Shown here: piece after piece, positions 9,477 through 61,442 of the stretch
Layout: every line of letters begins with the position of its first letter
Position numbering within the stretch: position 1 is the first letter of the stretch
NCBI RefSeq assembly: GCF_901827185.1
Contig: NZ_LR594672.1
Coordinates: 558,001-622,000, forward strand
Direction: 5' to 3'
Source of the DNA: Variovorax sp. PBL-E5
Lineage (GTDB): Bacteria > Pseudomonadota > Gammaproteobacteria > Burkholderiales > Burkholderiaceae_C
DNA: 64,000 nucleotides
Position numbers and translations under genes: made by a program
The notes under the pieces: generated by a model
Database searches by the model: none
What the model was told of the DNA's origin: nothing
Seen by the model: the letters and a program-made list of their open reading frames with translations, nothing else

Positions 9477-9489
9477 CGCAGCGCAACAG

Positions 9490-10358: not shown

Positions 10359-10386
10359 GCGAACTTTTTGGCTATAGGGCGCCGCA

Positions 10387-10557: not shown

Positions 10558-10562
10558 AGGAA

Positions 10563-10955
10563 TCAAAACAAGGAATCTTGCACGGGCGGCGCACCTTGAC
10601 CGGCTTCGTCCCTAGGTGCGAGCTCGCGACCGAGAATGCGCCCCATTTGGGCCCGAATCAGCTCAGCGTGACAGCGGCGCGGGGCACACCAGCACTGGAG
10701 AGCAACGGCCTGGCCGCTTTGAACAAGCAGGGCCAAGCGTCGAATTTCTCGGGTCATGGGTCCTTCGCGCTCTTCGTCCAGGGCTCTCTCTCGCTCGAAA
10801 CTCGCGATGGCCGCATCCCGGCCAGCGGCATCCAGGTGGTCCTTCAAAACCGCTTTGTTGCCAAGTACTGCGTTCGTGCGGTCCACAGCAACAACCAGTT
10901 CCCCATCTCGTGGGGGCGTGCCGCCTTTCCGCTTGCTGACAATGCGTACGTACAT
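10563..10955 (-). CDS. DUF4326-family protein
   Basis: A 130-residue protein with the hallmarks of DUF4326: an N-terminal YVRIVSKRKGG block, an internal charged helix, and the C-terminal signature LQCWCAPRRCHAELI. The two Cys (CWC) plus the RRCH motif suggest metal or nucleic-acid binding; the family's biochemical role is unknown and it is frequent in phages and plasmids. ATG 10955 is used; ATG 10958 lies immediately upstream in frame. Confidence 0.75.
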   Translation of the reverse strand: MYVRIVSKRKGGTPPRDGELVVAVDRTNAVLGNKAVLKDHLDAAGRDAAIASFERERALDEEREGPMTREIRRLALLVQSGQAVALQCWCAPRRCHAELIRAQMGRILGRELAPRDEAGQGAPPVQDSLF

Positions 10956-11236
10956 CAAACCTCCAATATTAAGCCTGACTCGTATAGAGATTGCCCTTTC
11001 GTGACGAAAGAGCGCAGCTGCCGGCCCGGACGTTCAGCGGGTGGTGGATAGGTCAGGTTTGCTGCGTTAGACTCTCCTCGCCCACCCTGAAAGGGATAGC
11101 TTTTTACAGGTTCCCGGGCGCCCCTCTGCGGTCACAGACGCTCGTTACGCTAGGGGAGCTTTTGCTCGGATGTCCGCGAACCAGGCTCCGTGCGCAACGA
11201 TGCAGCGGCATGGGCCGCACGGAACGGAGGCACGGA

Positions 11237-47115: not shown

Positions 47116-48228
47116 TTAGGCAATCGACAGTTTCTGTCGGGATGCACTCTTTTGACCAACGCCGAGCGGTCGCGACGTAATGCGCAGGAAGTGGTCAAGG
47201 ATGTGAAAGTGGTCTTCGAAGAACTGGTCTTCCATGCGTGCCAGGTCAGAGATTCGCACCCATCGCGCCTTCTTGGCACCTCCATCAGGGTCGAACTGCG
47301 CGTTGACCTCCGGGAGTCGCAGGTTTCCGAGATTGAACTTGAAGGCCTGAGAAATGATGCGGCCGCGCGGGCTGCGACCTGGGTGGTCGAAGACGGCCGA
47401 GTCCTCGAGCGCGTCCAGCAGCGTGGTATCCAGGAAGGCGAGCCCGGTCTCCTCCGCAAGCTCCCGCACCGCTGTCTCATAGAAGCGGTCGCCATCCTCC
47501 ATGAAGCCACCGGGCACGGCGTAGAGCCCCTTGCCCGCGCCTTCACCTCGCTGGATGAGCAGGACATGCCCACCGCAGATGACCACCGCGTCGCCGGCGT
47601 TGGAAGACTTGATATGCCCCCACTTTGCCTTGTAACCACGCAGCCACTCAGCCTCCCATGCGAGGGTCGACCGACAGGGCAGCGACCACCAGGCCGTCAG
47701 GTAGTCGTAGACGCCCGCGGGGACCATTGGCTTGAGCAACATGAAAATTGCTTCGCGCGGCTGGCCAGGGGTGTCGAACAGGACACTGCGAATCGCTGTT
47801 GCGTCCAGGTCCGAGAATCGGGGACGCTCTTGAAGCGCCCACCCAGGGAATCGGTTCAGGTAATAGCTCGTGTGGTCTTTGAAGTGTCCGACCAGCGCGA
47901 CCTTGCGGGCAGCGGGCACCACCTCGGCGACACCGGCACGCACTGCAGCAACCCAGTCAGCGTCCTCGTAGTAGTCCCGGACCGGCACGAAGAACACGCG
48001 CTCGCGGTCCGATTCGGGCAGCGCCAGCCGAATCATGTCGGCGCGCTCCTGCCAGGTGAAGGGATTCTTGGGGCTGCGCGCCTGGAAGGCGGAGCCCAGG
48101 ACGATGGCAACCTGCGGTGCGAGCGCCAGTGCGTCGAGGATGAGGGCCTGGTGGCCGAGGTGCATGCCCTGGAAGCGGCCGATATAGACAGCGAGGTCGA
48201 AGGAAGACGGTGGGAGCGGGGAAGTCAT
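47116..48228 (-). CDS. nadM: Bifunctional NMN adenylyltransferase / Nudix hydrolase
   Basis: A 370-residue two-domain protein. The N-terminal nucleotidyltransferase has VYIGRFQGMHLGHQA (about 14-28), the (H/T)xGH motif, and an ATAIR block for the ISSTxxR site. The C-terminal Nudix domain has GGFMEDGDRFYETAVRELAEETG, intact except that the first catalytic Glu position reads Asp (GD instead of GE). It resembles Synechocystis/Francisella NadM-Nudix enzymes, which join NMN to ATP to make NAD, with the Nudix part clearing ADP-ribose. The gene is preceded by the shared NAD operator at 48280-48304 and its own promoter. Confidence 0.9.
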   Translation of the reverse strand: MTSPLPPSSFDLAVYIGRFQGMHLGHQALILDALALAPQVAIVLGSAFQARSPKNPFTWQERADMIRLALPESDRERVFFVPVRDYYEDADWVAAVRAGVAEVVPAARKVALVGHFKDHTSYYLNRFPGWALQERPRFSDLDATAIRSVLFDTPGQPREAIFMLLKPMVPAGVYDYLTAWWSLPCRSTLAWEAEWLRGYKAKWGHIKSSNAGDAVVICGGHVLLIQRGEGAGKGLYAVPGGFMEDGDRFYETAVRELAEETGLAFLDTTLLDALEDSAVFDHPGRSPRGRIISQAFKFNLGNLRLPEVNAQFDPDGGAKKARWVRISDLARMEDQFFEDHFHILDHFLRITSRPLGVGQKSASRQKLSIA

Positions 48229-48269: not shown

Positions 48270-48298
48270 AGTATAGCATCGTTCGTTGCACTGCGCAA
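48270..48298 (-). promoter_or_regulatory. nadM promoter
   Basis: Minus-strand -35 TTGCGC (48298-48293), 17-base spacer, -10 TATACT (48275-48270). The transcript would start near 48263, about 35 bases before ATG 48228. The spacer and -35 are covered by the NAD operator. Confidence 0.75.
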
Positions 48299-48304
48299 CT
48301 AACG
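48280..48304. promoter_or_regulatory. NAD-regulon operator, site 1 (nadM)
   Basis: Inverted repeat CGTTCGTTGC-ACTGC-GCAACTAACG with outer arms CGTT(C/A) and core GTTGC/GCAAC. It overlaps the -35 and spacer, so a bound protein would block RNA polymerase. Confidence 0.75.
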
Positions 48305-48381
48305 AAAGCAATGTCGTTTGAGAGCCGTTTCCTCTTTTCTTCTTCACCAAACGGCGCCCAGTTGCTGCAACCAAGCGCCAT

Positions 48382-48407
48382 AAAAAAACGCCCCGTGATT
48401 GGGGCGT
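48382..48407 (-). terminator. Intrinsic terminator
   Basis: ACGCCCC / GGGGCGT stem followed on the minus strand by TTTTTTTA. It ends the nadE-operon region transcript before the nadM promoter. Confidence 0.7.
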
Positions 48408-48426
48408 CCTAAAATGAAAGTGGAGG

Positions 48427-49038
48427 TCAGATGCCGTCGGTCAGCCCAAGCTTTATCCGCGCATTGGCCACCGCGGTTGCGGCATCTCGTGCCTCGGCAA
48501 TGACGGCCCACGTCGAGTCGGTTGGCTGCACCACTGTCCAGCGACCGTCGCGTTCGCCAACAAAACAACCTGGGGGCAGTTGGTCAAGCGACGACGCCGC
48601 GGGGCCTTCGGGAACAAGGGCCACCTTAGGCTCCGCCGTGTGCTTCAGCAGATAGGGGTCCGTGAAATGCACGCCGTGTCCGCCCTCGGGTGTGTGCACC
48701 CAGGAAAGGCGATGGCGAATGGCCTTGTAAAGCTCGAACGCAATCTTCGCATCCGTAGGGGTGGATTCGCTGCCGATGGACTTGGAGCCTCCGAGGGTGT
48801 AGCCCGTCAGTACGGCCTTAAGCTGTTCGACCAGCTTGTCGCCCTCGAGCAGCGCGCCGTTGGCCAAGGGCTCGCCCTTCTGGCTCGTTATGCCGCCGTA
48901 GCGGACGAACTCCATCAGGTATTCGAGCTGGCCCATGCCCAGTCGCCCCACGAGCTCGAGTGCATCAGCCAGTACGTGGCTTTGCTTCTGGCTCAACCCG
49001 ATGAGGCTGTATCGGAGGTTGGCGTCAAGCTGTGTCAT
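48427..49038 (-). CDS. Uncharacterised protein, 203 aa, downstream of nadE operon
   Basis: Begins MTQLDANLRYSLIGLSQKQSHVLAD. The N-terminal helical part (ELVGRLGMGQLEYLMEFVRYGG) precedes a small beta-rich C-terminal domain (GCFVGERDGRWTVVQPTDSTWAVIAEARDA). No family recognised. The next gene upstream on this strand ends 125 bases away, and a terminator lies after its stop. It may be the last gene of the nadE transcript or have its own weak promoter. Confidence 0.6.
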   Translation of the reverse strand: MTQLDANLRYSLIGLSQKQSHVLADALELVGRLGMGQLEYLMEFVRYGGITSQKGEPLANGALLEGDKLVEQLKAVLTGYTLGGSKSIGSESTPTDAKIAFELYKAIRHRLSWVHTPEGGHGVHFTDPYLLKHTAEPKVALVPEGPAASSLDQLPPGCFVGERDGRWTVVQPTDSTWAVIAEARDAATAVANARIKLGLTDGI

Positions 49039-49162
49039 GAATGTCCTTTTGTTTGGTGGAGCGCGCGAAACGGCGGGCCCGGATTTGAGGTCTGTGCGGC
49101 GTGTAGCAATTTTGGCGCAACTACCGGCCCCGGCCGTTACAGCACCGTTGCGCCAACGGCGG

Positions 49163-49675
49163 TCAACGGGGAAGGGTCTCAAGCACCGTTTGAGGCAGCT
49201 CGCCGGCGTCAATCAGCTTCTGAAGTCTGCGCATCCGGTACTCGGCGCCGCCTTCCGTCACGATGAGCTCGTGCTCGAACCAGGGCCACGCCGTCTTGCT
49301 CATGTCGACGCCTCTGGCCACCTCCTGACCGTAGACAGCCCGAAACTTCTTGAGCAATTCCGTTAGGCTGTAGCGGATGCCGGCAGCCACCTGGTTGAAC
49401 TCCGAAAGAGCGGGCTGCTCCGTGGCAAGTTGAACCTTCAAGTCACGGTTCTGATTCCAAGCCGTATTGCTTCTCGCGGCGGCCGCCAGCCCCGCGTTCA
49501 AGGCGCGCAGTCCATTTTCCCGGTGCTCTCCCTCCGGAAGCTGCAGGACGGCGTCAAGGCCTTTCCTGTAGATGTCCAGGGCGGAGCCTGCCAAGCCGTC
49601 TGCGCTGTTCGACTCGAGCAGGCCCCTGAGGTAGTGGTGGCTGAGGGGGTCGTTGTAGTTCTTCTGTGAAGTCAT
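49163..49675 (-). CDS. Uncharacterised protein B of the nadE operon
   Basis: A 170-residue helical protein starting MTSQKNYNDPLSHHYLRGLLES. It is clearly paralogous to the preceding gene product: both share NYNDPxSHxYLxxLLES, a central GLDAVLQLPEGEHR-type block, and P(A/E)LSE(F/L)N. A WFEHELIVTEGGAEYR block near the end is also common to both. It is likely a subunit of a hetero-oligomer with its paralogue, but no known family is recognised. It lies 44 bases after that gene in the operon led by nadE. Confidence 0.7.
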   Translation of the reverse strand: MTSQKNYNDPLSHHYLRGLLESNSADGLAGSALDIYRKGLDAVLQLPEGEHRENGLRALNAGLAAAARSNTAWNQNRDLKVQLATEQPALSEFNQVAAGIRYSLTELLKKFRAVYGQEVARGVDMSKTAWPWFEHELIVTEGGAEYRMRRLQKLIDAGELPQTVLETLPR

Positions 49676-49719
49676 CGTGGTCCTTAAGGCAGCGGAGCAG
49701 GGCAGGCAAAACCGCGGGG

Positions 49720-50238
49720 TCAGGACGCGGGCGCGTCAGAAGGCGAGTCAGGAGCGGCGGGGCTGGCCAAGCTCGACTCGAACCGCCCAAAGATGTGGTT
49801 CACGTAATTCGCGGATACGGCCAACTCGTGCTCGAACCAGCACCAGCTTGTCTTCCAGATATCCACGCCTTTCGCCTCCTCCAGCTTCGCGGCCTCCCTG
49901 AACTTGCGCTCCACAGTCGCCATCTGGCCCCGGGCTTGCCTGGCGAGTTCATTGAGCTCGCTGAGCTCCGGACGCTCGAGCTTAAGCTGCTCCTTCAGGC
50001 GCACGTTCTCGCCGTAGAGCTCAGCTCGGCGTATGGCGGCGCTCACGCCGCTGTTGAAGGCAAACAGAGCCGCCTTGCGGCCCTCGCCGACCGGCAGCTC
50101 GAGCAGCCCGTCAAGGCCGGCGCTGAATGACTTCACCACATGGTCCGCCAGGCCCAGCTTCCCCGGGCTTTCGAGCAGGTCGGCCAAGTAGCCGTGGCTT
50201 TGAGGGTCGTTGTAGTCTTTTTTGGGTGCGTCGGGCAT
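49720..50238 (-). CDS. Uncharacterised protein A of the nadE operon
   Basis: A 172-residue helical protein starting MPDAPKKDYNDPQSHGYLADLLES, paralogous to the gene at 49163-49675. Shared blocks are DYNDPxSHxYLxxLLES, GLDGLLELPVGEG, ERPELSELN and CWFEHELAV. ATG 50238 overlaps the nadE stop (TGATG), so it is translationally coupled to NAD synthetase. That tight coupling suggests the paralogue pair works with NAD synthesis or its regulation, but the fold is unknown. Confidence 0.7.
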   Translation of the reverse strand: MPDAPKKDYNDPQSHGYLADLLESPGKLGLADHVVKSFSAGLDGLLELPVGEGRKAALFAFNSGVSAAIRRAELYGENVRLKEQLKLERPELSELNELARQARGQMATVERKFREAAKLEEAKGVDIWKTSWCWFEHELAVSANYVNHIFGRFESSLASPAAPDSPSDAPAS

Positions 50239-51947
50239 CAGACCACCTTGGCGGCAATGGGCATCTGACGGCCGCTACCGAACGCGCGCGCCCGGACACG
50301 GATGATGGGAGGTGCCTGACGACGCTTGTATTCGTTCCGTGCAATCATCGTTCGCACCCGCAGAACCAGCGCGCGGCCTTCCTCGGTTTCCATCAAATCG
50401 CTGACGCGGCGGATTGCGTTGGCCTTTTCGTCAGAAGCCAGGCGGCCGCCCTCGATGAGCATGCGAAGCACGTCGTCCAGCACTTCGTAGGGGGGCAGGC
50501 TGTCGGTGTCCTTCTGGTCGGGCGCCAGTTCCGCCGACGGGGGCTTTTCGATGATGGCCACAGGGATGATTTCGCGCTCGGCCGTCGCGTTGATGTGGCG
50601 GCACAGCTCGAACACCTCGGTCTTGTAGAGGTCCCCGATGAGGCCGAGGCCGCCATTCGTGTCGCCATAAAGCGTGCAGTAGCCGACCGAGATTTCGCTC
50701 TTGTTGCCGGTGGTCAGCAGCAAGTGACCGAACGCGTTCGAGTACTCCATCAGGATGGTCCCGCGGGCGCGGGCCTGGAGGTTCTCCAGGGGAAGCCCCT
50801 TCAGCGGCTGCCCGAAGGCTGCCTCGAAGCCCGCGCCGAAGGCGCTGACGACGTCCTTGATAGCGTGTGTGAGCAGTGGGATTCCCAAGTTTCGGCAAAG
50901 CGTCTCAGAGTCGCTGACAGAGCCCGTACTGGAGAACTTTGACGGCATCGTGATGGCCGACACGTTCTCTGGCCCGAGTGCTTCAACGGCCAGGGCGAGC
51001 GTTAGCGCGCTGTCAATGCCGCCCGACGAGCCGACCACGACTTGTTTGAACCCGCAACGGCGAGCGTAGTCACGCAAGCCCAGGACGATTTGCTGGCGGT
51101 AAAACTCCATCGTGGGCAGGCCTTCGACGGACACGACCGGTAGTTCCTTGTCATCGGTTGCGAAGAAGCGCCCGTTGTCGAACCCCAGCGTGCGCACCTC
51201 TTCCATGAAACGCGCCGCCTCGTATTGCACTGTGTATCCCTCGCGGGTCGGGACGACAGCAAACGAGCCGCCGTCGTAGACCAGTTGGTCGTGCCCGCCG
51301 ATGTGATTGACGTAGAAGATTGGGAGCTGGTTCACCGCGCTCGCCTGGCCGAACACGCGGTGGCGCACCTCACGTTTCCCGATGTCGCAGGGGCTCGCGT
51401 TCAGCGAAACAATAAGGTTCGGTGCTGCATCACGGAGGCGGTTGAAAGGGTTGACGATGTAGTCGGAGCCATCGTTGTTCCAGCCGTCCTCGCAGATGAG
51501 CAGGCCAACTCTCGTGCCTTGCACGTTGACCACGCAGGAACGGTCCGGGCCCGGCTCAAAATGGCGACGTTCGTCGAAGACACCGTAAGTCGGCAAGAGT
51601 TGTTTAGCGTACATCCCGCATTCCTTGCCGTCACGGATGACAGAAAGCGCGTTGTGCAGCTGTTTCCCCGGGCCGCTGCGCCGGCGCGGAAGGCCGAATA
51701 CCCAGGTGAGCTCCGGATGCGCCTTCGACGCGGTCAACAACTGGGCGAAGCCGAGTTCGACCCGGTCCAGGAACTCGGGCTCGTCCAGCAGGTCTCCGGG
51801 GTAGTAGCCGGTAAGCGCGAGCTCCGGAAAGACGACCAGGTCGGAACTGGCGGCCGCGGCCTGAGCCGCCGCCTCGGCCATCTTGGCAACGTTGCCGAAG
51901 ATGTCGCCGACGGTGAGGTTGAGCTGAGCGGAGGTGATGCGAATCAT
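50238..51947 (-). CDS. nadE: Glutamine-dependent NAD synthetase
   Basis: A 569-residue two-domain NadE. The N-terminal nitrilase-like glutaminase has its Glu-Lys-Cys triad: E42 (VVFPELALTGYY), K115 (GMYAKQLLPT), C152 (LLICEDGWN). The C-terminal synthetase has the ATP PP-loop SGGIDS (308-313) and GNKSEISVGYCTLYGD. It makes NAD from nicotinate adenine dinucleotide using glutamine. ATG 51947 is the start: the upstream ATG 51986 falls at the promoter -10. Transcription is from an operator-controlled promoter, and two unknown paralogues follow in the operon. Confidence 0.92.
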   Translation of the reverse strand: MIRITSAQLNLTVGDIFGNVAKMAEAAAQAAAASSDLVVFPELALTGYYPGDLLDEPEFLDRVELGFAQLLTASKAHPELTWVFGLPRRRSGPGKQLHNALSVIRDGKECGMYAKQLLPTYGVFDERRHFEPGPDRSCVVNVQGTRVGLLICEDGWNNDGSDYIVNPFNRLRDAAPNLIVSLNASPCDIGKREVRHRVFGQASAVNQLPIFYVNHIGGHDQLVYDGGSFAVVPTREGYTVQYEAARFMEEVRTLGFDNGRFFATDDKELPVVSVEGLPTMEFYRQQIVLGLRDYARRCGFKQVVVGSSGGIDSALTLALAVEALGPENVSAITMPSKFSSTGSVSDSETLCRNLGIPLLTHAIKDVVSAFGAGFEAAFGQPLKGLPLENLQARARGTILMEYSNAFGHLLLTTGNKSEISVGYCTLYGDTNGGLGLIGDLYKTEVFELCRHINATAEREIIPVAIIEKPPSAELAPDQKDTDSLPPYEVLDDVLRMLIEGGRLASDEKANAIRRVSDLMETEEGRALVLRVRTMIARNEYKRRQAPPIIRVRARAFGSGRQMPIAAKVV

Positions 51948-51986
51948 TGTGGTTTTATGCAGCTGTGTTGTCTGGGAAACATGCAC

Positions 51987-52015
51987 AGTATAGCATCGTT
52001 CGTTGCACGGTGCAA
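51987..52015 (-). promoter_or_regulatory. nadE promoter
   Basis: Minus-strand -35 TTGCAC (52015-52010), 17-base spacer, -10 TATACT (51992-51987). Transcription would start near 51980, about 33 bases before ATG 51947. Confidence 0.75.
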
Positions 52016-52021
52016 CTAACG
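51997..52021. promoter_or_regulatory. NAD-regulon operator, site 2 (nadE)
   Basis: CGTTCGTTGC-ACGGT-GCAACTAACG, the same inverted repeat and promoter register as site 1, overlapping -35 and spacer. Confidence 0.75.
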
Positions 52022-52030
52022 GCGGCTATA

Positions 52031-52056
52031 GAAAACCCACCGCAAATGCGGTGGGT
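52031..52056 (-). terminator. Intrinsic terminator for NADAR gene
   Basis: ACCCACCGC / GCGGTGGGT stem; minus strand continues with TTTTC. Confidence 0.7.
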
Positions 52057-52082
52057 GATTCGAAGTTTCGGACGGGTGGTGC

Positions 52083-52601
52083 CTAGAAGAGCGTCGGTGC
52101 CGGCGCTGCGCGCTGAGCCGAACGGATGGCGGAGCGAACACGCATCAGGAGGTATCCCAGGCGATTCGCGCCGCGCCAGGTCTCGGTGTCAAGAATGCGG
52201 GGGTCATAGGCCGCAAGACCCACGCCGTACAGCCGGTCGGTCGGGCTCGCTTCGATGATGAGCTTCTCCTCGCTCGCCATGAGCACGCCATGCGCAGACG
52301 CGACCTGCGTGAACTTGTCGAAGAGCCCCTCGAAAAGCACCGCTTCGCTTGCGGCGTCCCAAATCGGCTTGACAAAGCCTGACACGGCCCGGCCCAAGGC
52401 CTTTTGTTCGCGCGGGTCCGGCTCTACCAGGATGGCTGCCATGCTGGTGGCATCCCCGAACAGTTCGGCCTTCCGGTACATCATCAGCTGCTCGGAGCAG
52501 TTGAAGTCGATGCCGCGGCTGGTGAACTTTCCTATGTTCCAGTTCGAAAGGGGGCTTTGCGCGCCCCAAAAGGTGACGATTTCGGTGCGAAGAAGCTTCA
52601 T
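52083..52601 (-). CDS. NADAR-family protein (YbiA-like)
   Basis: A 172-residue NADAR protein. Family blocks are visible: FWGAQSPLSNW at the start, FNCSEQLMMYRKAELFGD, SGFVKPIWDAASEAVLFEG, LIIEASPTDRLYGVGL and NRLGYLLMRVR. NADAR proteins are linked to NAD and ADP-ribose; some remove ADP-ribose from DNA guanine as antitoxins to DarT-type enzymes. It lies just upstream of the nadE operon, but has its own GCTAGAC-type promoter (28 bases before ATG 52601) and no NAD operator. Its presence supports an ADP-ribose repair theme. Confidence 0.85.
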   Translation of the reverse strand: MKLLRTEIVTFWGAQSPLSNWNIGKFTSRGIDFNCSEQLMMYRKAELFGDATSMAAILVEPDPREQKALGRAVSGFVKPIWDAASEAVLFEGLFDKFTQVASAHGVLMASEEKLIIEASPTDRLYGVGLAAYDPRILDTETWRGANRLGYLLMRVRSAIRSAQRAAPAPTLF

Positions 52602-52659
52602 TGTGATGTCCTGTTGGTTTCCTATCCGGTCTAGCGACAGGACAGCGACCTATAGGACC

Positions 52660-53211
52660 TCAGCGGTCTTCGCCACTACCGTGCATCGTTCCGCGCGCCT
52701 TGCGGCCGAGAATCTTGTGCTGGTTCTCTCCCAGCACTTCGGACGGCGTGAAGCCATGCGCCCGGCAGAGCCGCGCCCAGTAATAGGCCACGTCACCCAG
52801 CTCCTTGCGCAAGTGAGCGCGGTCGAGCTTGCCGTCGCGAAGCCACTTTTTAAGCAGCTCCATGACCTCACCGGTCTCACCCGACAGGCCGAGCGACATG
52901 ACGGTGTGCTGGCGCAGGTCCAGCTTGTCGCCATCACCGCTCATCCAGAGGTCGACGGTGAACTGTGCGTACTCGTCGATGTCGGTGCACGGCTTCGCTT
53001 CAGCAGGCAGGGGCGGCGCCGGGGCCGGTTCTGCAGCGCGCGAGCTTTTGACCACCCAAAGGCCGAAGAGCAAGCCCACGATGACTGCAAGATGCTCCAT
53101 CCACAGCTCGAGCTCAGCGCCCAGATAGGCCGCGCTACGCACCAGGAGCACGCAGATGGCGATGGAGCCCAGTACCGTACGAGCAGCGGCGAACTGCCGG
53201 GCCGCGCTCAT
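52660..53211 (-). CDS. MazG-like nucleotide pyrophosphohydrolase with N-terminal membrane anchor
   Basis: A 183-residue protein. The first 50 residues hold two hydrophobic helices (TVLGSIAICVLLVRSAAYL, HLAVIVGLLFGLWVV). After a P/A-rich linker comes a MazG-type all-alpha domain: TVMSLGLSGETGEVMELLKKW with the ExxE pair, then LRKELGDVAYYWARLCRAHG with the ExxD. MazG enzymes hydrolyse NTPs, dNTPs or ppGpp-related nucleotides. ATG 53211 overlaps the StbB-like stop (ATGA), so they are coupled. A membrane-tethered MazG is unusual. Confidence 0.75.
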   Translation of the reverse strand: MSAARQFAAARTVLGSIAICVLLVRSAAYLGAELELWMEHLAVIVGLLFGLWVVKSSRAAEPAPAPPLPAEAKPCTDIDEYAQFTVDLWMSGDGDKLDLRQHTVMSLGLSGETGEVMELLKKWLRDGKLDRAHLRKELGDVAYYWARLCRAHGFTPSEVLGENQHKILGRKARGTMHGSGEDR

Positions 53212-53939
53212 GCGTCGACTGCCTCGATGCCGAGGTTGCTGAAGATTAGGTCCAGCTGCGTCTTGAGCTTCTTGGCGCTCGCGGCCGCCAGCACGTTGCG
53301 CACGCCGGCCTTCGGGTCGCCGCCGTCTGCCGCCAGCGCCTTCGAGTCGGCCAGGAGCTGCTTCGGGTCCATTGCGGCCAGTTCCTCGATGGTCTTGCCC
53401 AGCGACGCGGCCAGCTGAAACGTGTCGCTCTCCGGAATTTCGCCGTATGCCATCACGCCGAGGTTGGCTGCCTCCTCGACCAGCTTGCCGAACACCACTT
53501 CTGAGCCGCGACGCGGCGGCACCTTGTTCAGCACCAGCATGATTTTCCCCTCGTCGAAGCCAAGTTTCTCGATAAGGAAGTGCAGGGTGCTGATGGTGTC
53601 CGTCTGGACCTTCTCCGAAGGCTCGGTGGGCACCAGCACCTTGCCGATGAACTCGTGCATGCCGTCGTAGCTCGACAGAGCAGCAAAGAAGTTCGACACG
53701 TTCGAAGCGCCCACGTCGACGATGACGGGTGCGGACATGGCCGCTTCGATGGCTTGCTCGAGGATTGCGCTCGTCTGCTCGGCGGAGAGCTGCACGGCCT
53801 CCCCCTGGTTGTATCCAGCGTTGACGTCTTCCACAGCAAAGACCCGCACGTCCTTGAGCCGTGGCACAAGCAAGTTGCGCGTCAAAGTTGTTTTTCCGAC
53901 GTTGCCGCTGAAATTTGCGACCATCACGATTGGGTACAT
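53208..53939 (-). CDS. StbB/ParA-type plasmid stability ATPase
   Basis: A 243-residue P-loop ATPase of the ParA/MinD-like StbB type. The deviant Walker A is ANFSGNVGKTTL (about 8-19), followed by the Walker B-like VIVDVGASN and a later VLNKVPPRRGS. Plasmid StbB proteins help place and stabilise plasmids. MYPIVMVANFSG at ATG 53939 is preferred over an upstream start at 53966, which lacks family sequence. No cognate StbA/ParB is adjacent. The overlapping MazG-like gene is its only visible operon partner. Confidence 0.75.
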   Translation of the reverse strand: MYPIVMVANFSGNVGKTTLTRNLLVPRLKDVRVFAVEDVNAGYNQGEAVQLSAEQTSAILEQAIEAAMSAPVIVDVGASNVSNFFAALSSYDGMHEFIGKVLVPTEPSEKVQTDTISTLHFLIEKLGFDEGKIMLVLNKVPPRRGSEVVFGKLVEEAANLGVMAYGEIPESDTFQLAASLGKTIEELAAMDPKQLLADSKALAADGGDPKAGVRNVLAAASAKKLKTQLDLIFSNLGIEAVDA

Positions 53940-54153
53940 GCGCTCTCCGGAGGAAGTTGACGCCACGGCCTCTGATGGGCCACAGCACTTCCTCGTTTAG
54001 GGGAACGTTTTAGCCGGGGGGTGGGGCCTAAGCCGAGACGCTACTACCCGTTACCCCTTCGTTACGCTCGTCGACTGGGCCTCGGTTAAAATCCGCACTT
54101 CTCGAAACCGTCACTCCCCTGCGCTGGGACATCGACGGAACCTACAGAGCTCC

Positions 54154-54384
54154 ATGTCCAAAGCAGCACCCCAGACCTCCATCGACTCCGGCGGGCTTCG
54201 CTACCGCAACAAAACCCCCGGCTCGCCCTTTGCAGTGGGCGGCAACTTCGGAAGTTCGACCATGTCGTGCTTCAAGTGCGGCACTCACCGCAACCGCTCA
54301 CTGCTGCAATCCAAGCAGCTGCTGGGCCGGACACACTTCGTCTGCGCCCCGTCTTGCAAGGCGCTGGCAGAAGCCGCGAACTGA
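54154..54384 (+). CDS. Small zinc-binding protein, 76 aa
   Basis: A 76-residue protein with MSCFKCGTHRNRS and, 19 residues later, FVCAPSCKALAEAAN: a CxxC...CxxxC pattern of a small zinc ribbon. The N-terminus is a disordered Ser/Gly-rich tail. It may bind nucleic acid or serve as an adaptor. It stands alone between divergent operons on the minus strand. Confidence 0.65.
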   Translation: MSKAAPQTSIDSGGLRYRNKTPGSPFAVGGNFGSSTMSCFKCGTHRNRSLLQSKQLLGRTHFVCAPSCKALAEAAN

Positions 54385-54420
54385 CGCCAGCCCCGAGCGC
54401 GCGCTCGGGAGGCCCCGCTG

Positions 54421-54807
54421 CTAGCGGTTTCGAATCCGCAATTTCCAGCGAAATTCGGTCGAGCAGGGCTGCGCTCGGCGCCTCTGCGGGGTGAGCCTCG
54501 TTAGGGTGACGCCGTAGCCGTCGAATCCGAGGTCATACCGGATGTGCCGCTCAATCTCCCGCAGTGCTTCCTCTGTCCAAGTCACCCAAGACGGTGACTT
54601 CGTCGACACGCCCAGATAAACGATGCGGCTGGCACGCGGCCAATGTGCCATTAACCCGTCAGAGAGGTCGAAGCGGCGGTTTGTGCTCGTATGCAGCGGT
54701 CTGCCACGGCCATCTGTGAAGTTCAGCGTTGACCGGGATGGCCATAGGTTGGGCGCGCTCGGCCGCTGGTCGCGGGTCAGCAAATTGAGGTTCCGTGCTG
54801 TAGTCAT
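54421..54807 (-). CDS. Uncharacterised protein C of a three-gene operon, 128 aa
   Basis: A basic protein beginning MTTARNLNLLTRDQRPSAPNLW. Its middle has ADxGRGRPL-like and YLGVSTKSPSWVTWTEEALREIERHIRYDLGFDG, giving an alpha/beta look. Its ATG overlaps the stop of the preceding gene (ATGA), so it is the last gene of a tightly coupled operon. No family recognised. Confidence 0.6.
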   Translation of the reverse strand: MTTARNLNLLTRDQRPSAPNLWPSRSTLNFTDGRGRPLHTSTNRRFDLSDGLMAHWPRASRIVYLGVSTKSPSWVTWTEEALREIERHIRYDLGFDGYGVTLTRLTPQRRRAQPCSTEFRWKLRIRNR

Positions 54808-55661
54808 TTGTTCTCCAGAAACCCGTCCGTGTCCTGATGGACGGCGGCAGCATCAACCGGACGGCAGACGGCGACAGCCTCCCGGGGCTCACGAGCTGTG
54901 AAGTGCCCAGCAGTCAGGCTTGTCACCGTGTCCCGTGGCCACGCCGCGGAGTGAACAGCCTGTCGAGGGTCGCACCAGCAGGGGACGATGAGCGTGGCCG
55001 AACTCTGCAGGCAAGGCGTCGCCCCTCCTGGCCAAACCAAGCCGACGTCTGCATTCCATGCACCCGAAACAACGCTGCTGGGCGCGTTCGCGGGCCCAAA
55101 GAACTCACCCATTGCCGCCCCATCGAGCTCCTGCAGCGCCGACGCGGCCATCGTTGTCGAGGCTACCTTAAAGACGGCGCTAGCGGCATCAGCGACCTTG
55201 CCTGCCGGCCCGCACGCGAACGCCTTCACCGTCTTCAGGCTTGCCCATTCCCACGGCACACTCGCAACGCCTAGCACCAGCTCGAGTTGATGACGGCCGC
55301 TGGCACGAATTGCCATCACTGCGGCGTCAACCGCTTCGGCCTCCTTTATCCTCCGCGCCGGAAGCTGCGCTACCACAATCAGGCCTGATGGCCGGAACTG
55401 GGACAGCAGCTCGCTTAAGGTTCGCAACAGGTCCTTGGCAGACGCTCGCACCCAGTGCTCGGTCACACCCTGCAATTGCCCAGCCAACGCAGCGGCACTT
55501 GGCTGCATTCCGGCATCGAGGTTGAGCAGCACAACAAGCCGCGGGACTTCGGTGCGCTCGCCGTCAGGGAGGTCGAACGCATAGCCTCCGCTCGCAACGA
55601 AGATTTCGGCCCCGTCCTGCAAACAGGCCAAGGGTACCAAGGGGGCGGCGGCGCGCGACAC
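54804..55661 (-). CDS. Uncharacterised protein B of a three-gene operon, 285 aa
   Basis: A soluble protein: MSRAAAPLVPLACLQDGAEIF. The region LVVLLNLDAGMQPS with ASAKDLLRTLSELLSQFRPSGLIVVAQLP looks like alternating strands and helices of a Rossmann-type fold, but no nucleotide-binding signature is complete. It starts five bases after the upstream stop and overlaps the next gene. No family recognised. A regulatory or structural role within the operon is possible. Confidence 0.6.
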   Translation of the reverse strand: MSRAAAPLVPLACLQDGAEIFVASGGYAFDLPDGERTEVPRLVVLLNLDAGMQPSAAALAGQLQGVTEHWVRASAKDLLRTLSELLSQFRPSGLIVVAQLPARRIKEAEAVDAAVMAIRASGRHQLELVLGVASVPWEWASLKTVKAFACGPAGKVADAASAVFKVASTTMAASALQELDGAAMGEFFGPANAPSSVVSGAWNADVGLVWPGGATPCLQSSATLIVPCWCDPRQAVHSAAWPRDTVTSLTAGHFTAREPREAVAVCRPVDAAAVHQDTDGFLENK

Positions 55662-55666
55662 CGGCG

Positions 55667-56167
55667 TCAGGCCGGCAGCTGGGCGCTGTACTTCTCGCAG
55701 AACGACTGAATCTTGACCAGGTCTGCCCGGGTGACCGTCTCCGGGAACTGAATCCTCGCCTTACGGCGCGTGTCCAGCTGGATGGCCCATTCATGTACCA
55801 CGGTCGACGTGGCATTGCCCACGGACTTCATGATGAGGGCGGCCACCGGGTCGACATCCTTCGGCTCGTTCGGCTGAGCTGCCGGGAGGATGGTCGCGAA
55901 CTTGCGGAATCCCTCGTCCCAGACGAAGCGCGTGCTCATCCCGCGACGGCCAAGAACGAGTTTGCCCATCTGCAGGCCTTCCAGAGCGTTGAGTACCGTT
56001 CGGATTCGTCGGGGTCCAAGTTTAGTCAGCTTGACGAGCCGCTCAACCGTGACCGTTTCCATCTTGTTTTCATAGGACCGTAGGGCGTCGAATACGCGGC
56101 GGGCATCGCCGCTTTGGATGCGCATGGACTTCAGCTTCTTCTGCAGGTGCATCGTCACGGTGGTCAT
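55667..56167 (-). CDS. Uncharacterised protein A of a three-gene operon, possible winged helix
   Basis: A 166-residue basic protein. Residues about 20-80 (DARRVFDALRSYENKMETVTVERLVKLTKLGPRRIRTVLNALEGLQMGKLV) have the spacing of a winged-helix DNA-binding domain. The remainder is helical. It leads an operon of three unknown, translationally coupled genes, so it may be a regulator or DNA-binding component. A role as the repressor of the NAD operators cannot be tested here. Confidence 0.6.
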   Translation of the reverse strand: MTTVTMHLQKKLKSMRIQSGDARRVFDALRSYENKMETVTVERLVKLTKLGPRRIRTVLNALEGLQMGKLVLGRRGMSTRFVWDEGFRKFATILPAAQPNEPKDVDPVAALIMKSVGNATSTVVHEWAIQLDTRRKARIQFPETVTRADLVKIQSFCEKYSAQLPA

Positions 56168-56315
56168 TCTGGAAGCTCCTTCTATTGCAACCGAATGTAC
56201 CAGGTAAACAGCGTAAGCGTGCAGTCGCTTAGCCTTTTTAGGCTCTTAGCGTGAGACCGGTGAGCAGCCGAGCGACCGGAGCAGGGCGGCTGCCTGCTGG
56301 CAAAGCCCTTTCCGG

Positions 56316-56914
56316 CTATCGAAAGGTTCTGCGAAACGTAAGGTTCACCCGACTCGAATCGCCAGGCTCCTTGAAGATGCCGTGGCGCCATTCGTTCTGA
56401 CAATCGCCCTTCATCACCAAGAGCGAGCCCCCTGGGAGCGAGTTCTTGTGCCGCATGCCGGTCTTCTGTGCTCGAAGACGAAGGTTCGCGAATCCCCGAG
56501 AGAGATTGAGGCGATGACGGGCTGCGGGCCCAACTGGGTCTCGTCGTCCGAGTGCATGCCGATGGAGTCATTCCCGCTTCGATAGCGGTTCAGCAGGACG
56601 CTATTCAGGTCCGTCGGCACCCCATGGTCGCAAAGGTAGGCCTCTATGCGCTGACGGACGGCTTTCAAGGGGGCGGGCATCGCCACCGGTTGGTGAAGGA
56701 TGCCGGAGTAAGCGTAGGGCACGTCCCCGAACCAAGCCAGTTGGCGGGGGAACTCCACCAGGCGACCGCCCCAGCTGGCCATCTTGGTCTGCCACTGAAT
56801 CCCGTCCAGGCAGAACTCAAGCAGCTCCGCATGGTGTGCGGGAGTGAGGAAGGCGGGTTCCCACAGCACGTCAGGGAACGGGCCGATGAAATCTGAGAAG
56901 AACGAGTTGTCCAT
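56316..56914 (-). pseudogene. AlkB-type 2-oxoglutarate/Fe(II) dioxygenase, frameshifted
   Basis: The first 150 residues are AlkB-like: NSVLLNRYRSGNDSIGMHSDDETQLG carries the iron-binding HxD, and SLGDSRTFVFEHR precedes a shift near 56470. A one-base change then continues the family sequence in another frame: RHKNSLPGGSLLVMKG, QNEWRHGI (second iron His) and SSRVNLTFRRTF (2OG Arg) to a stop at 56316. If the shift is real the enzyme is truncated before the second His and inactive; if it is a sequencing error, this is an intact ALKBH2-like DNA repair gene. Confidence 0.75.
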
Positions 56915-57146
56915 AGGTCCTTGCAGCGGTCTCTTTCCCCAGGAGGCGGGCTTCGGTCCGATTACGCGACGGCGGTGGCAGCGAAGCCGATGACCGTCAT
57001 GCCCGCGCCGAACGCAAGCAGAACGGCCAGCTCGAAGTTGTCGAGGAATCGCGATTTGAGAGAGTAGGTTGCAGGCCTGTTCCTGGGCCTTTGAGGGTTG
57101 AACCTCGTGTAGGCAGGTGGTTTACTCGAGGCCGTCTCCGCGCCTG

Positions 57147-57365
57147 CTACGCATCCGCTGTGGCCAGGTCCAGCTCCGCGAGCTTCCATGCCTCTGTACC
57201 GGAACAGAACACGTCCTGAGGCCGGTTCGCGCGGTCCAGGCCAAAGTAGAGGCCAAGGTCCTCGCCATCGACGGACATCACCATTGCGTCCTTGCCCGCC
57301 CGACGACCGTCGGGGTGGTCCGCTCGAACCCGGACGAAACCGCCCCTGTTGAGAATGTGCGCCAT
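57147..57365 (-). CDS. Uncharacterised small protein after pncB, 72 aa
   Basis: A small protein MAHILNRGGFVRVRADHPDG with a GLYFGLDRANRP block. It starts 11 bases after the pncB stop and is probably co-transcribed with it. A short acidic C-terminus (WKLAELDLATADA) ends it. No family recognised. Its position suggests a role linked to nicotinate salvage, but nothing else supports that. Confidence 0.6.
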   Translation of the reverse strand: MAHILNRGGFVRVRADHPDGRRAGKDAMVMSVDGEDLGLYFGLDRANRPQDVFCSGTEAWKLAELDLATADA

Positions 57366-57376
57366 GCAGTGCCCCT

Positions 57377-58615
57377 TCAGACGGCGGGCGCCGTGTGGTT
57401 GAAAACCTGCCGGAGGTACGCCAGGAAGGTCTCGTCCTTGCACAGCGTCTTCCCCGCGGAATCGGACAGCTTGGCAGTAGGCTGACCATTGCAGCTCATG
57501 AGCTTCATGACGATGTTCAGCGCAGGGACGCCCATGTCGTTGGTCAAGTTCGTACCGACACCGAAGCCCACCTGCACGCGGTCGGCAAAGTGGCGATAGA
57601 GGTCGAGCGAACGCGGGATGTCGAGGCCATCCGAGAACACCAGACGCTTGGTCCCTGCGTCAACGCGCAGCTTGGCGTAGTGGGCCAGGGCCTTTTCGCC
57701 CCACACCTTCGGGTCACCTGAGTCGTGGCGCAGACCGTCGAACAGTTTTGCGAAGTACAGGTCGAAGTCCGCCAGGAACGCGTCCATGCCAACAACGTCC
57801 GTGAGCGCAATCCCGAGGTCACCGCGGTACTCCTGCACCCAATCCTCCAGGGCGGCCTTCTGGAAGTCGCGCAGGCGCACGCCAAACGATTGGTAGGACT
57901 GAAGGTATTCGTGCGCCATCGTGCCGATTGGCACCAGGCCGTGCTTGCGCGCCAGGTAGACGTTGGACGTGCCCTTGAAGTATTCCGGGACCTCCCGCGC
58001 GAGGGTGGCGACCACCTCGTCCTGCCATGCACCAGAGAAGCGTCGGCGCACGCCGAAATCGGAAAGGTCGAACGGAAAGCGCCGTGGCGCCTCCTTGCCG
58101 AAGGCCTTGAGCATTGCAATCTTCTCGGCGAGGCGCGCGCGGCCTTCTTCTAGCGCGAGAGCTTGGTCGACATTGCGGAAGTAAAGCTCGTTGACGATGG
58201 CGAGCACGAAAATCTCAAACATCATGACGTGAACCTGAGGTCCCGTCGCGACAATGTTCAGGGCATCCCCGCTCACGGAAACCTTGATGAACTTGCGCTG
58301 AAAGTGGAACAGCGCAAGGAAGTCGACAAAGTCCGATTTGATGTACCGCAGGCCGCGCAGATAGGTCAGTTCGTCTTCACTGAAGCGCAGGGTGCACAGG
58401 TCGTCCAACTGCTCGTTCACCTCCGCCTCGAGCTCTGCCAGCGGAAACTGCGGTTTGTTTCGACAGACAAACGCATACTCCGCGTGTGCACCAGGGTGCC
58501 GATGGAGCATCGCCTGCAACATCGAGAACTTGTAGAGGTCGGTTTCCAGCAGGGAGCGGATGACAGGAACGAAGGGCTCTCTTGCGGAGGCCTGGGTTGC
58601 GGTGAAAGCGGTCAT
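57377..58615 (-). CDS. pncB: Nicotinate phosphoribosyltransferase
   Basis: A 412-residue PncB. It aligns block by block with E. coli Pnc[17 protein letters not shown] near the N-terminus, [44 protein letters not shown] with the phospho-acceptor H235, [18 protein letters not shown] and [10 protein letters not shown]. It converts nicotinate and PRPP to nicotinate mononucleotide, the first Preiss-Handler step. Transcription starts from an operator-controlled promoter about 36-40 bases upstream. ATG 58615 (or 58633) is used; the longer frame is upstream of the promoter. Confidence 0.92.
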
Positions 58616-58657
58616 TTTTTGAGGTGGCGGCATTGCCGCGCGGGAAGGTGTACGTGC

Positions 58658-58686
58658 AGTATAGCACCGTTCGTTGCGCCGCGCAA
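58658..58686 (-). promoter_or_regulatory. pncB promoter
   Basis: Minus-strand -35 TTGCGC (58686-58681), 17-base spacer, -10 TATACT (58663-58658); start near 58651. Confidence 0.75.
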
Positions 58687-58692
58687 CTAACG
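58668..58692. promoter_or_regulatory. NAD-regulon operator, site 3 (pncB)
   Basis: CGTTCGTTGC-GCCGC-GCAACTAACG, identical half sites to sites 1 and 2 and the same promoter register. Confidence 0.75.
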
Positions 58693-58775
58693 AAAGAGGC
58701 GAGGCCGCGCCTGTCGTTCTCTTCCTCACCATGCTGTGCGTGCATCGAGGTGACGCCTACATGCATCCTGCCGAA

Positions 58776-60503
58776 CTAGCTCAAGCTGAGCTTCATCACC
58801 TCGCCGTCCTCGAAAGCTCCTATACCGGCGCCGAGCGAGAAGAGCCGCAGCTCGCCGGCCAACCCACTCCTGTCAATCTGCTTGCGGGCCGCCCCTTTGG
58901 CAACAACGAGAGCGTCCTCCTCGCGCAGCACCCCGACACCCGAGGAGCTGGCCGCCGCGTCAACCCCCAGCGTCGCAACAACCACCACCTCTTCAACCGC
59001 CCACCGCCCGGCCTTGAACGCAAGGGACAGTCGGACGGTCTCACCGTCGACGCGGCGGACAGCCGTAAGCCAGACATTCGACCGGTCAAGGCCAAACCCT
59101 TCGGCGACCTTGTAGCCCTTCAGGCCCTCGGCCGGCCCCTGCAGCACGCCGTCCCCTTCAAGCACCCCCACGAAAGGCATGCCCAGGCAGTCTTGCACGA
59201 AGCCTCCTCGGAAAAACGATGTCGAGAGGATGGCTGCCGGCCATTGCTGGCGCACAGCCAGCACCAGGCGCCCGCCCAGCTCAGCGGCGTCAACCTCGAC
59301 CAGACCGTTCGACACGCCAGGCGCAAGCGCGAACACGCGATTCCCGGACTGCCAGACTCGTAGAGCGGTCGAGGGGAGGTTGCTGCCCGACGGCCCGCCG
59401 AGCGCGCGACAGGAAAGCGACACCCCTGGCCGGAGCCGTAACACGACCCGGTAACCAGCCGTCCTGACGATGGCGGCCTCGTGCCGAAGGACTTCTTGCA
59501 GCTCGCCTTCAGTGACATCAGCTACGGGCGACTTGGCGAGCGCATCCCAAAGCACCAGGCCCGAGGGGCCACGCGCGACGACAAAGCCGTTGAAGGCGGC
59601 CAGAATCTTGTCGCCAGCGTGGCCAAGGCGCTCCAGCTTCAAGGAGCCTGCGAGCGTCTGCCGGACGCGCAGCCGCGGCGCGGTCTGTGTCGCAAGCGTG
59701 CTCGCAAAGGTTGACGGCGGTTCCGAGCGCTCTCCGGTAGCGAAGGTGAGTTCGTACCAAGCGCGCAAGGCGGGCGGGATGCCCGCCACGAGCCTCGCTG
59801 CGGGCGGTAGGCGAACCTTGCTGTCAAAGAGGGACGCGCGCGACCGCATACGCTCCTCGAGCGCCCCGCGACTGAAGTCCGGGTGGGTACCCTTGTAGGG
59901 ATGAATGCCGGTCCACAGCTGAAACGTGACCACGGCCCAGGCAAACCAGTCACTGCCTTCGGAAAACTCGTTCTGGGAATAGTCGCGGATGGAGGGCATG
60001 ATTGCCGTGGCAGGGAAGCCAGGCAGCTGCCAGGAGTCCACATCGATTGCCGTTGGCAGCAACCCGTGGACGAGCCAGTTCATCTCGTTGGCGTCGACCA
60101 TCAAGGCCTGGTGGTCATGAGCGGCGATGGTGATGCCTCGCATGGCCTCTACAACCTTCGCCGTCTCGGTAAGGCCAAACTGATGGGTGTCCCTCCAGCT
60201 GTTCGTGAATGCCTTGTAAAGGGCTTCTCCGGGCGCCTTCGGCAGCGACAGCCCAATGAAAAGTCCATTCTTGTCTCGAAGGATGGCTTGCGGAGCGGCG
60301 ATGCCGGGGTGCTTGATGGCCGCCAGGGCGGCGACCTTGCGCTCCATGCCCGCCCGGATTGCTTTGGCCGGCTCCAGGTAGACCTTGTACGCCGTGTCCC
60401 CCTTGACGTAGACCGAACCTTCGCCACCGGTGGCAAGGTGGTCGTTTCCCGTCAACACAAGGCTTCGGCCTCCTTCCGGGTAGACGGTGACGCGCTCACT
60501 CAT
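58776..60503 (-). CDS. Serine/threonine protein kinase-like protein
   Basis: A 575-residue protein with an N-terminal kinase domain: glycine loop ATGGEGSVY (24-32), invariant Lys K40 in AYKVYL, catalytic VDANEMNW (D137, N142), and an IDVDSW metal-binding segment near 153-158. A later WFAWAVVTFQLWTGIHPYKG matches kinase subdomain IX-like sequence. The C-terminal 280 residues are a beta-rich repeat-like region (RVWQSGNRVFALAPG, GLDRSNVWLTAVRRVDG). It overlaps the PP2C gene by 8 bases. Resembles kinases paired with PP2C in TerY-P-type triads, but no vWA gene is nearby. Confidence 0.8.
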   Translation of the reverse strand: MSERVTVYPEGGRSLVLTGNDHLATGGEGSVYVKGDTAYKVYLEPAKAIRAGMERKVAALAAIKHPGIAAPQAILRDKNGLFIGLSLPKAPGEALYKAFTNSWRDTHQFGLTETAKVVEAMRGITIAAHDHQALMVDANEMNWLVHGLLPTAIDVDSWQLPGFPATAIMPSIRDYSQNEFSEGSDWFAWAVVTFQLWTGIHPYKGTHPDFSRGALEERMRSRASLFDSKVRLPPAARLVAGIPPALRAWYELTFATGERSEPPSTFASTLATQTAPRLRVRQTLAGSLKLERLGHAGDKILAAFNGFVVARGPSGLVLWDALAKSPVADVTEGELQEVLRHEAAIVRTAGYRVVLRLRPGVSLSCRALGGPSGSNLPSTALRVWQSGNRVFALAPGVSNGLVEVDAAELGGRLVLAVRQQWPAAILSTSFFRGGFVQDCLGMPFVGVLEGDGVLQGPAEGLKGYKVAEGFGLDRSNVWLTAVRRVDGETVRLSLAFKAGRWAVEEVVVVATLGVDAAASSSGVGVLREEDALVVAKGAARKQIDRSGLAGELRLFSLGAGIGAFEDGEVMKLSLS

Positions 60504-61320
60504 CGCCCGGCTCCCGGTCAAGCCAGATGCCGGCGACCGCGAGGTCATCTGTCGGCATGCCCCCCGCCTTCAGCCAGTCTCGAGCAAGCTTGGCCACCCG
60601 CCTACGCACGAACTCCCCTGTGGAGTTCTTCACTGCGGCCACCGCGGCAGCCGTTGCCTCAAGGCCTTCCTTGGTCGTGCCGAGCCCGTCACTGCACACA
60701 AAGACGGCATCCAGGTCCTGGCGCTTCACGTCCAGGGTGAGCTCCCAAGCCGGCGCCTGCGAGCTCTGAGCACAAACGTCGCTGCCCAGGACGCCGCCGT
60801 TGGCATCGAGCCTGGTACGTACGCAGTTCCGCAGCTGGTCCCTGTATTGCTCGTCGTAGGCAGTCTCCAGGGCAGGGTCTCGGAGGTACTGAAGGTAGAA
60901 CGGGGCATTCGCAGAGTATTCGACCGACCAGACGGATAGGCCTCCGTCCCTGTGTCGGGCGATGACGACTCCGTCCCCGAACAGGCAGCAGCGCACAAGT
61001 GCACCATCGCTTTGGAGTACGCCGAGCGTCGAAAAGCCGTCCTCTGTGCTGAGGTTGGCCAATAGGGGCTCCGCCCTCTCAAGCACGCGGCGCTGCAGCT
61101 CGTAGGCGGGCAGCAGCTCCCCCGCAGCGCGAATGAGGACGCGTCGTGCGGCAAGCGCCCAGACACGGGCGCCGAGGTCCGAGGCCCCTCCACTAGAGCA
61201 CCCATCCGCGACCACTGCCCATGCGACTCCTTCGGCCGAGCCCGCAAGGCAATAGTCCTGGCACGCCGTCGCCGCTGCGGTATGGCTGCTCCCTGTCAAC
61301 ACGGCATGGTCTGTGTGCAT
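60496..61320 (-). CDS. PP2C-family protein phosphatase
   Basis: A 274-residue PPM phosphatase. Metal-binding blocks are CQDYCLAG at the start, VVADGCSSGG (D39-G40), a VFVCSDGL segment and a C-terminal TDDLAVAG. It would dephosphorylate targets of the adjacent kinase, forming a reversible switch. ATG 61320 has AAAAGGGG upstream; the longer frame begins upstream of the promoter. The NAD operator (site 4) and promoter lie directly before it, so the operon is in the same regulon as nadM, nadE and pncB. Confidence 0.85.
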   Translation of the reverse strand: MHTDHAVLTGSSHTAAATACQDYCLAGSAEGVAWAVVADGCSSGGASDLGARVWALAARRVLIRAAGELLPAYELQRRVLERAEPLLANLSTEDGFSTLGVLQSDGALVRCCLFGDGVVIARHRDGGLSVWSVEYSANAPFYLQYLRDPALETAYDEQYRDQLRNCVRTRLDANGGVLGSDVCAQSSQAPAWELTLDVKRQDLDAVFVCSDGLGTTKEGLEATAAAVAAVKNSTGEFVRRRVAKLARDWLKAGGMPTDDLAVAGIWLDREPGDE

Positions 61321-61347
61321 GCTCAACCCCTTTTGCTTGCGATGCTC

Positions 61348-61376
61348 AGTGTAGCTTCGTTCGTTGCTTGGTGCAA
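61348..61376 (-). promoter_or_regulatory. PP2C-kinase promoter
   Basis: Minus-strand -35 TTGCAC (61376-61371), 17-base spacer, -10 TACACT (61353-61348). Start near 61341. Confidence 0.7.
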
Positions 61377-61382
61377 CTATCG
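61358..61382. promoter_or_regulatory. NAD-regulon operator, site 4 (PP2C-kinase)
   Basis: CGTTCGTTGC-TTGGT-GCAACTATCG; one outer base differs (TATCG), but half sites and promoter register match sites 1-3. Confidence 0.7.
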
Positions 61383-61442
61383 AACCGCAGGAAAAGGCCA
61401 CCAAGGATTGATTCATCCCTGGCGGCCCGAATTAACGCTGTG

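Follow-up and report, generated by a model that had tools for sequence, protein, structure and literature searches.

Three kinds of system described so far bear on the locus reported here: the control of genes for nicotinamide adenine dinucleotide (NAD) metabolism by NrtR, the TerY-P triads, and NAD synthesis by phages. The NrtR proteins studied so far act as repressors that ADP-ribose releases from DNA (PMC6800001), and their motifs are taxon-specific and differ between lineages (PMC5343134, PMC6800001). TerY-P triads combine a vWA protein, a PP2C phosphatase and a Ser/Thr kinase and occur in restriction or defence systems (PMC11090510). Phages are known to synthesise NAD with enzymes other than those discussed below (PMC9503650, PMC7824862, PMC13232231). 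Here we describe a 64,000-nucleotide stretch of the soil bacterium Variovorax sp. PBL-E5 (the window), which lies on C2, an 839,194-base plasmid, and in which genes for NAD salvage and a PP2C/kinase pair carry the same palindrome at their promoters. The most fitting class for the locus is an NrtR regulon to which a TerY-P-like triad is coupled. No paper tying a vWA/PP2C/kinase triad to PncA or NrtR was among the matches listed in a search of openly licensed PMC papers, which leaves absence from print unproven.

We propose, at a probability of roughly 0.87, that these palindromes are operators of a plasmid-encoded NrtR-family repressor, which would release NAD salvage genes and the triad in response to ADP-ribose, and that the genes form a recurring cassette that is here split over promoters with copies of one operator. 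The window contains four 25-bp inverted repeats (Table 1), each of which matches CGTT(C/A)GTTGC-N5-GCAACTA(A/T)CG with 0 mismatches; shuffles of the 64-kb window yield an expectation of 0.01 matches at up to 3 mismatches. All four have the same minus-strand layout, in which the palindrome overlaps a TTGC(G/A)C -35 element and the 17-base spacer, and the -10 element starts 4 bases past the palindrome. The -10 reads TATACT at nadM, nadE and pncB and TACACT at the PP2C gene. Read by eye, three of the four promoters also have an extended -10 (TGC before it). An earlier note on this DNA had located the four repeats, placed them over the -35 and spacer of minus-strand promoters with a 17-base spacer, and assigned these promoters to nadM, nadE, pncB and a PP2C-kinase operon. 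The repeats and the layout are as it described, and domain matches together with the kinase fold bear out the gene assignments. As strong inverted repeats, the palindromes could in principle be structural or terminator-like elements instead of operators. This is extremely improbable, as the 4-base gap to the -10 is constant in the four window promoters and at pncA, no T run follows the palindromes, and a related palindrome before pncA is kept in relatives while its inner bases vary.

The earlier note would have regarded its proposed regulon as refuted if the motif appeared at many unrelated coding positions. Across the genome (6,871,554 bases in 3 contigs), the strict pattern at up to 3 mismatches retrieves the four window sites, a fifth site on C2 (that at pncA) and a single chromosomal match at C1:5802657, which has 3 mismatches; the backwards control gives 0 matches. 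A looser pattern of the outer arms, again allowed up to 3 mismatches, finds six sites, each with 1-2 mismatches and all on C2, before nrtR, pncA, pncB, nadE, nadM and the PP2C gene. At 3 mismatches this looser pattern alone would be unspecific, since its backwards control then gives 13 matches per strand. The four sites of the earlier note are all real, yet its set was incomplete: the genome holds six, and a vWA partner gene lies behind pncA outside the window. The two additional sites border two divergent genes, a nicotinamidase-like pncA and one for an NrtR-family regulator, the likely repressor.

This regulator combines an N-terminal Nudix domain with a C-terminal NrtR winged helix and matches the Shewanella structures 3gz5/3gz6 (8.4e-40), of which 3gz6 is an NrtR-DNA complex (PMC6800001). 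With 7 of 10 candidates scored, nothing else in the genome matches NrtR at E≤1e-20. The regulator has no canonical catalytic box in its Nudix region, and the Nudix box of Mycobacterium smegmatis NrtR is degenerate as well (PMC6800001). As in known NrtR regulons, a Nudix and winged-helix protein is encoded next to a palindromic operator that lies between nrtR and NAD genes, a site stands before nrtR itself, and the targets belong to NAD salvage. The Variovorax plasmid differs from these regulons in its operator, which has CGTTAGTTGC arms, in its six separate promoters where the known ones have a single divergent operon, and in the inclusion of the vWA/PP2C/kinase triad.

The site adjoining nrtR and the NAD genes is conserved in relatives. 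An NrtR homologue (cut-off E≤1e-20) is encoded in 87 of the 399 genomes searched from the same bacterial family. We examined approximately 20 kb around nrtR in 16 genomes, 14 with NrtRs of high identity and two chosen for an adjoining motif; in 13 of them nrtR is divergent from pncA-pncB-nadE-nadM, in that order (exceptions L085, L086 and L087). We derived a matrix solely from the four window sites and applied it to the 300 bases preceding nrtR in the 29 best genomes other than our own. Compared with Markov shuffles, a site is present at p≤0.01 in 20 and at p≤0.05 in 25 of the 29. The earlier note held that the repeat does not look like NrtR sites. This was not supported, because the repeat resembles the sites beside nrtR in most of these 29 relatives and NrtR motifs vary by lineage. 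Across the family, the strict motif matches in 29 of the 399 genomes including our own, mostly at scattered positions, its backwards control also matches many, and in 2 of the 28 other matching genomes a match adjoins an NrtR homologue. Two distant NrtRs (G021 and G115, 37-41% identical) have a motif copy with 1-2 mismatches within ~200 bases, which by eye lies between nrtR and a metallophosphatase-like gene. In L085 (~8074-9769) and L086 (~9400-11236), a distant NrtR gene is divergent from a metallophosphatase-like gene (by eye), with near-identical palindromes between them, an arrangement that is perhaps a second NrtR regulon.

Operator and regulator also vary together where the cassette occurs. 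We scored the four-site matrix upstream of pncA in 68 cassette loci that have PncA (the loci are described below). All nine loci with an NrtR at least 45% identical to that of the plasmid score 12.7-20.7, compared to -6.2 to 5.2 in 13 loci with a weaker NrtR match and -7.4 to 7.9 in 46 loci with no NrtR match. All nine reach p 0.010, the lowest value possible in the test, and none of the other 59 does; three of those 59 lie at p 0.03-0.05, which is roughly chance level. In eight of the nine, no site in the entire locus scores higher than the one at nrtR/pncA, and the ninth, L144, has a better copy 113 bases upstream of its pncB match. L163 has an operator copy upstream of pncB too (score 14.0); the pncB candidate site of L143 (5.5) is not above the background of that locus. 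The nine loci count as approximately six independent ones, as L144 and L152 are near duplicates by their kinases and the NrtRs of L143, L144, L145 and L152 are 85-95% identical. In all nine, the matches to pncA, vWA, PP2C and kinase are consecutive, with gaps of at most 169 bases, behind the NrtR operator. The claim of the earlier note that a single repressor governs nicotinate salvage and the PP2C/kinase pair together is supported by the six sites, the one NrtR homologue and these compact runs behind one operator, and very probably applies to the Variovorax plasmid.

Could a different regulator, such as NadQ, NadR, NiaR or an unknown plasmid protein, bind the sites, with nrtR as just one of its targets? 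The operator does stand before nrtR as well as before the other genes, and binding of NrtR to the sites is a prediction. We consider this very unlikely nonetheless, because the sites accompany nrtR in different species and change with the identity of NrtR. NadQ was rejected as a candidate, as the sites do not have its consensus (ttATRCTCannntGAGYATaa; PMC5343134), and so was NadR, which the same source describes as absent from Proteobacteria other than Enterobacteriales.

Several observations weigh against NrtR control in response to ADP-ribose. The plasmid NrtR fails the cut-off of the NCBIfam equivalog TransRepNtr (179 versus 400 bits). As this model names one ADP-ribose-responsive orthologue group, we claim membership of the NrtR family and not orthology, and a score so far below the cut-off leaves the effector uncertain; NAD+, for example, strengthens binding by Corynebacterium NrtR (PMC6800001). 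Among the four window sites, the PP2C operator has diverged most, and its -10 is the weakest. The Variovorax pncA protein is a sub-threshold match to the isochorismatase family (0.051). Four of the 29 relatives (L022, L023, L032 and L044) have no site at p≤0.05 upstream of nrtR, and in L044 a diverged copy is visible by eye. Finally, 59 of the 68 cassette loci lack this operator type upstream of pncA, and 46 of these 59 have no NrtR match in the flank examined. The support for NrtR control therefore extends to nine loci of the genome collection, of which about six are independent, and not to the phage versions of the cassette.

The coupling of NAD salvage to the triad recurs far beyond Variovorax. 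A protein search returned at least 376 homologues of the kinase, the closest 57-67% identical; of the best 120, three name an organism. With an alignment of the kinase alone as query, we collected 76 loci, 43 from a viral collection (IMG/VR) and 33 from a genome collection; one of them, L140, is a 49-residue kinase match that was not recovered by tblastn. PncA is present in 68, vWA in 69 and PP2C in 68 of the 76, and 67 have all three (38/43 viral, 29/33 genome). A same-strand vWA gene follows pncA within 1 kb in 67 loci, and in 68 the kinase lies at most 1.6 kb behind PP2C. Merging loci whose kinases are at least 90% identical leaves 63 non-redundant loci. All three partners occur in 56 of these, and a further NAD gene or NrtR match in 40, although some of the NrtR matches are probably cross-matches of other Nudix domains (in L114 the match overlaps a NadM match). 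Record titles include Rhodoferax, Bradyrhizobium, Desulfosudis and Candidatus Accumulibacter, and several further groups that we take to be members of the candidate phyla radiation (CPR); most records are metagenome bins, so these labels can be wrong. Among 50,697 phage records, the kinase was matched in three, all uncultured phage assemblies (485, 595 and 462 kb). The 40 kb around the kinase contain PncA and vWA in all three, PP2C in two and NadE in one. The pncA gene and the vWA/PP2C/kinase triad are a recurring cassette, whose genes on the Variovorax plasmid are scattered over promoters that each have an operator copy.

It might be argued that NrtR controls NAD salvage in the ordinary way and that the site at the PP2C/kinase pair is an accident of promoter duplication, with no functional link to NAD. 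The divergence of the PP2C site would fit such an accident. So would the narrow distribution of the kinase, found in 1 of the 399 family genomes, its own (at most three candidates scored per genome), and the 13 examined loci with nrtR and pncA-pncB-nadE-nadM, in which vWA, PP2C and kinase have no match. We regard it as unlikely, however, since the kinase-only query brought up PncA, vWA and PP2C together in most of the non-redundant loci, and the cassette run begins at an NrtR-type operator in nine loci.

The three proteins of the triad are the same kinds as in TerY-P. The predicted structure of the vWA protein (predicted local distance difference test, pLDDT, 91.7; predicted template modelling score, pTM, 0.90) matches vWA/integrin I domains in a fold search. 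Residues D39, S43, T108 and D144 are invariant in 36 sequences and fit the metal ion-dependent adhesion site, described for TerY-P as DxSxS...T...D (PMC11090510), with T for the first S (DxTxS) in the Variovorax protein. An alignment profile of the vWA protein found nothing reliable among the sequences of solved structures. In relatives, PP2C and kinase are encoded with the vWA protein; in Variovorax, the vWA gene lies behind pncA, apart from PP2C. In the kinase model (mean pLDDT 89.7, pTM 0.53), a protein kinase fold at the N terminus is followed by an all-beta C-terminal domain; given the pTM, their relative placement is uncertain. The predicted kinase of a myovirus aligns with it over 604 columns, loosely (TM score 0.41, root mean square deviation 17.5), and fold comparison of the C-terminal domain gave no identifiable fold. 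This all-beta tail of approximately 300 residues differs from the zinc ribbon or OB fold of TerY-P kinases (PMC11090510), and the partner genes here are pncA and other NAD salvage genes. We therefore describe the triad as TerY-P-like and do not file it as a member of TerY-P. In PHROGs, PP2C, kinase and pncA have no match and vWA matches only an unnamed family.

Like phages with NARP1 or NadV-NadM(-NadR) salvage, the phages with this cassette would supply their own NAD synthesis. The genes here (PncA-like, PncB, NadE, NadM) point to the deamidating route instead, although no search was aimed at Adps, Namat or NadV. The main text of PMC9503650 does not mention PncA, NadE, nicotinamidase, PP2C or TerY.

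The public annotation of the PP2C gene (60496-61416) puts its start at 61416, ahead of both operator and promoter; read by eye, the ATG at 61320, downstream of the promoter, is the more likely start. A NADAR-domain gene (52083-52601, minus strand) ends just before the nadE operator and matches the candidate anti-phage model PDC-M42C. In PADLOC, this neighbouring protein alone matched a defence model; vWA, PP2C, kinase, pncA and NrtR matched none. Downstream of nadE on the minus strand, two neighbouring hypothetical genes (49163-49675 and 49720-50238) resemble paralogues by eye and may share the nadE transcript.

Table 1. Predicted operators and genes of the proposed regulon. Positions are those of the window unless prefixed with C2.
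Feature	Position	Strand	Details
Predicted NrtR operator of nadM	48280..48304	-	-35 48298-48293 TTGCGC, -10 48275-48270 TATACT
Predicted NrtR operator of nadE	51997..52021	-	-35 52015-52010 TTGCAC, -10 51992-51987 TATACT
Predicted NrtR operator of pncB	58668..58692	-	-35 58686-58681 TTGCGC, -10 58663-58658 TATACT
Predicted NrtR operator of PP2C-kinase pair	61358..61382	-	-35 61376-61371 TTGCAC, -10 61353-61348 TACACT
Predicted operator before nrtR	C2:159819-159843		~18.6 kb past right end of window
Predicted operator at pncA-like gene	C2:159930-159954		~18.6 kb past right end of window
NrtR-family regulator	C2:159096-159770		~19 kb past window; Pfam NrtR_WHD (3.6e-19) and Nudix, both over cut-off
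nadM, bifunctional nicotinamide mononucleotide adenylyltransferase / Nudix	47116..48228	-	NCBIfam PRK05379 family 6.2e-82, 275 bits, below cut-off 409
nadE, NAD+ synthetase with amidase domain	50238..51947	-	Over family cut-off; annotated start
pncB, nicotinate phosphoribosyltransferase	57377..58615	-	Over family cut-off; annotated start
PP2C-type protein phosphatase	60496..61320	-	PP2C_2 5.5e-14; proposed start ATG 61320
Kinase-fold protein	58776..60503	-	Kinase fold ~residues 1-265, all-beta C-terminal domain ~278-575; no Pfam match of its own

Annotation and Pfam place further genes in the pncA run: the vWA gene (listed as hypothetical), another hypothetical gene, a deoxyribosyltransferase-like gene and an NAD kinase. 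The annotation around nrtR (L014:36632-44268) lists NAD kinase, a nucleoside deoxyribosyltransferase-like gene, a macro-domain gene, a Nudix hydrolase, RecX and AlkB; this plasmid region is an NAD/ADP-ribose island. The chromosome has its own NAD_synthase and NAPRTase domain matches. Over a 15.5-kb stretch, identity to plasmid 2 of Variovorax sp. SRS16 is 100%; a kinase search of the plasmid collection also matched SRS16 and did not match WDL1. In the 48 kb examined of the WDL1 sister plasmid (L174), only the nrtR and pncA sites of the six are present. The nrtR and pncA genes and, judged by position, the vWA gene are retained there, and heavy-metal resistance genes and an IS1071 transposase gene precede nrtR/pncA.

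In the mechanism we propose, NrtR would probably block RNA polymerase at five promoters by occupying their -35 and spacer, and would cover a -10-like box of its own gene. By analogy with studied NrtR proteins, breakdown of NAD would raise ADP-ribose, and NrtR would leave the DNA. Release would turn on deamidating salvage, in which PncA would convert nicotinamide to nicotinate, PncB nicotinate to nicotinate mononucleotide, NadM the latter to nicotinate adenine dinucleotide, and NadE this to NAD; the NAD kinase of the pncA run would join the induced route. The vWA/PP2C/kinase triad, induced at the same time, may adjust by phosphorylation how active NAD-related or other targets are, and PncA, its usual neighbour, is a first guess as such a target. 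Copies of one operator-promoter unit would tie together the cassette that is split over several plasmid promoters.

More tentatively, and at a likelihood that we place well short of even, the genes may represent an unnamed and widely mobile NAD-defence module of huge phages, megaplasmids and CPR bacteria, which joins deamidating NAD+ reconstitution (PncA, PncB, NadE) to a vWA/PP2C/kinase switch. Where NrtR is present, ADP-ribose from NAD-destroying defences would serve as the alarm, and the triad would tune PncA or host NAD enzymes post-translationally.

Taken together, this locus would link reversible protein phosphorylation with NAD salvage in a gene set common to very distant bacteria and large phages. 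The kinase family gains a functional context, and a regulator and its likely effector can be named. On the Variovorax plasmid, the arrangement looks like an operon that has been broken up, with its regulation kept by copying one operator-promoter unit.

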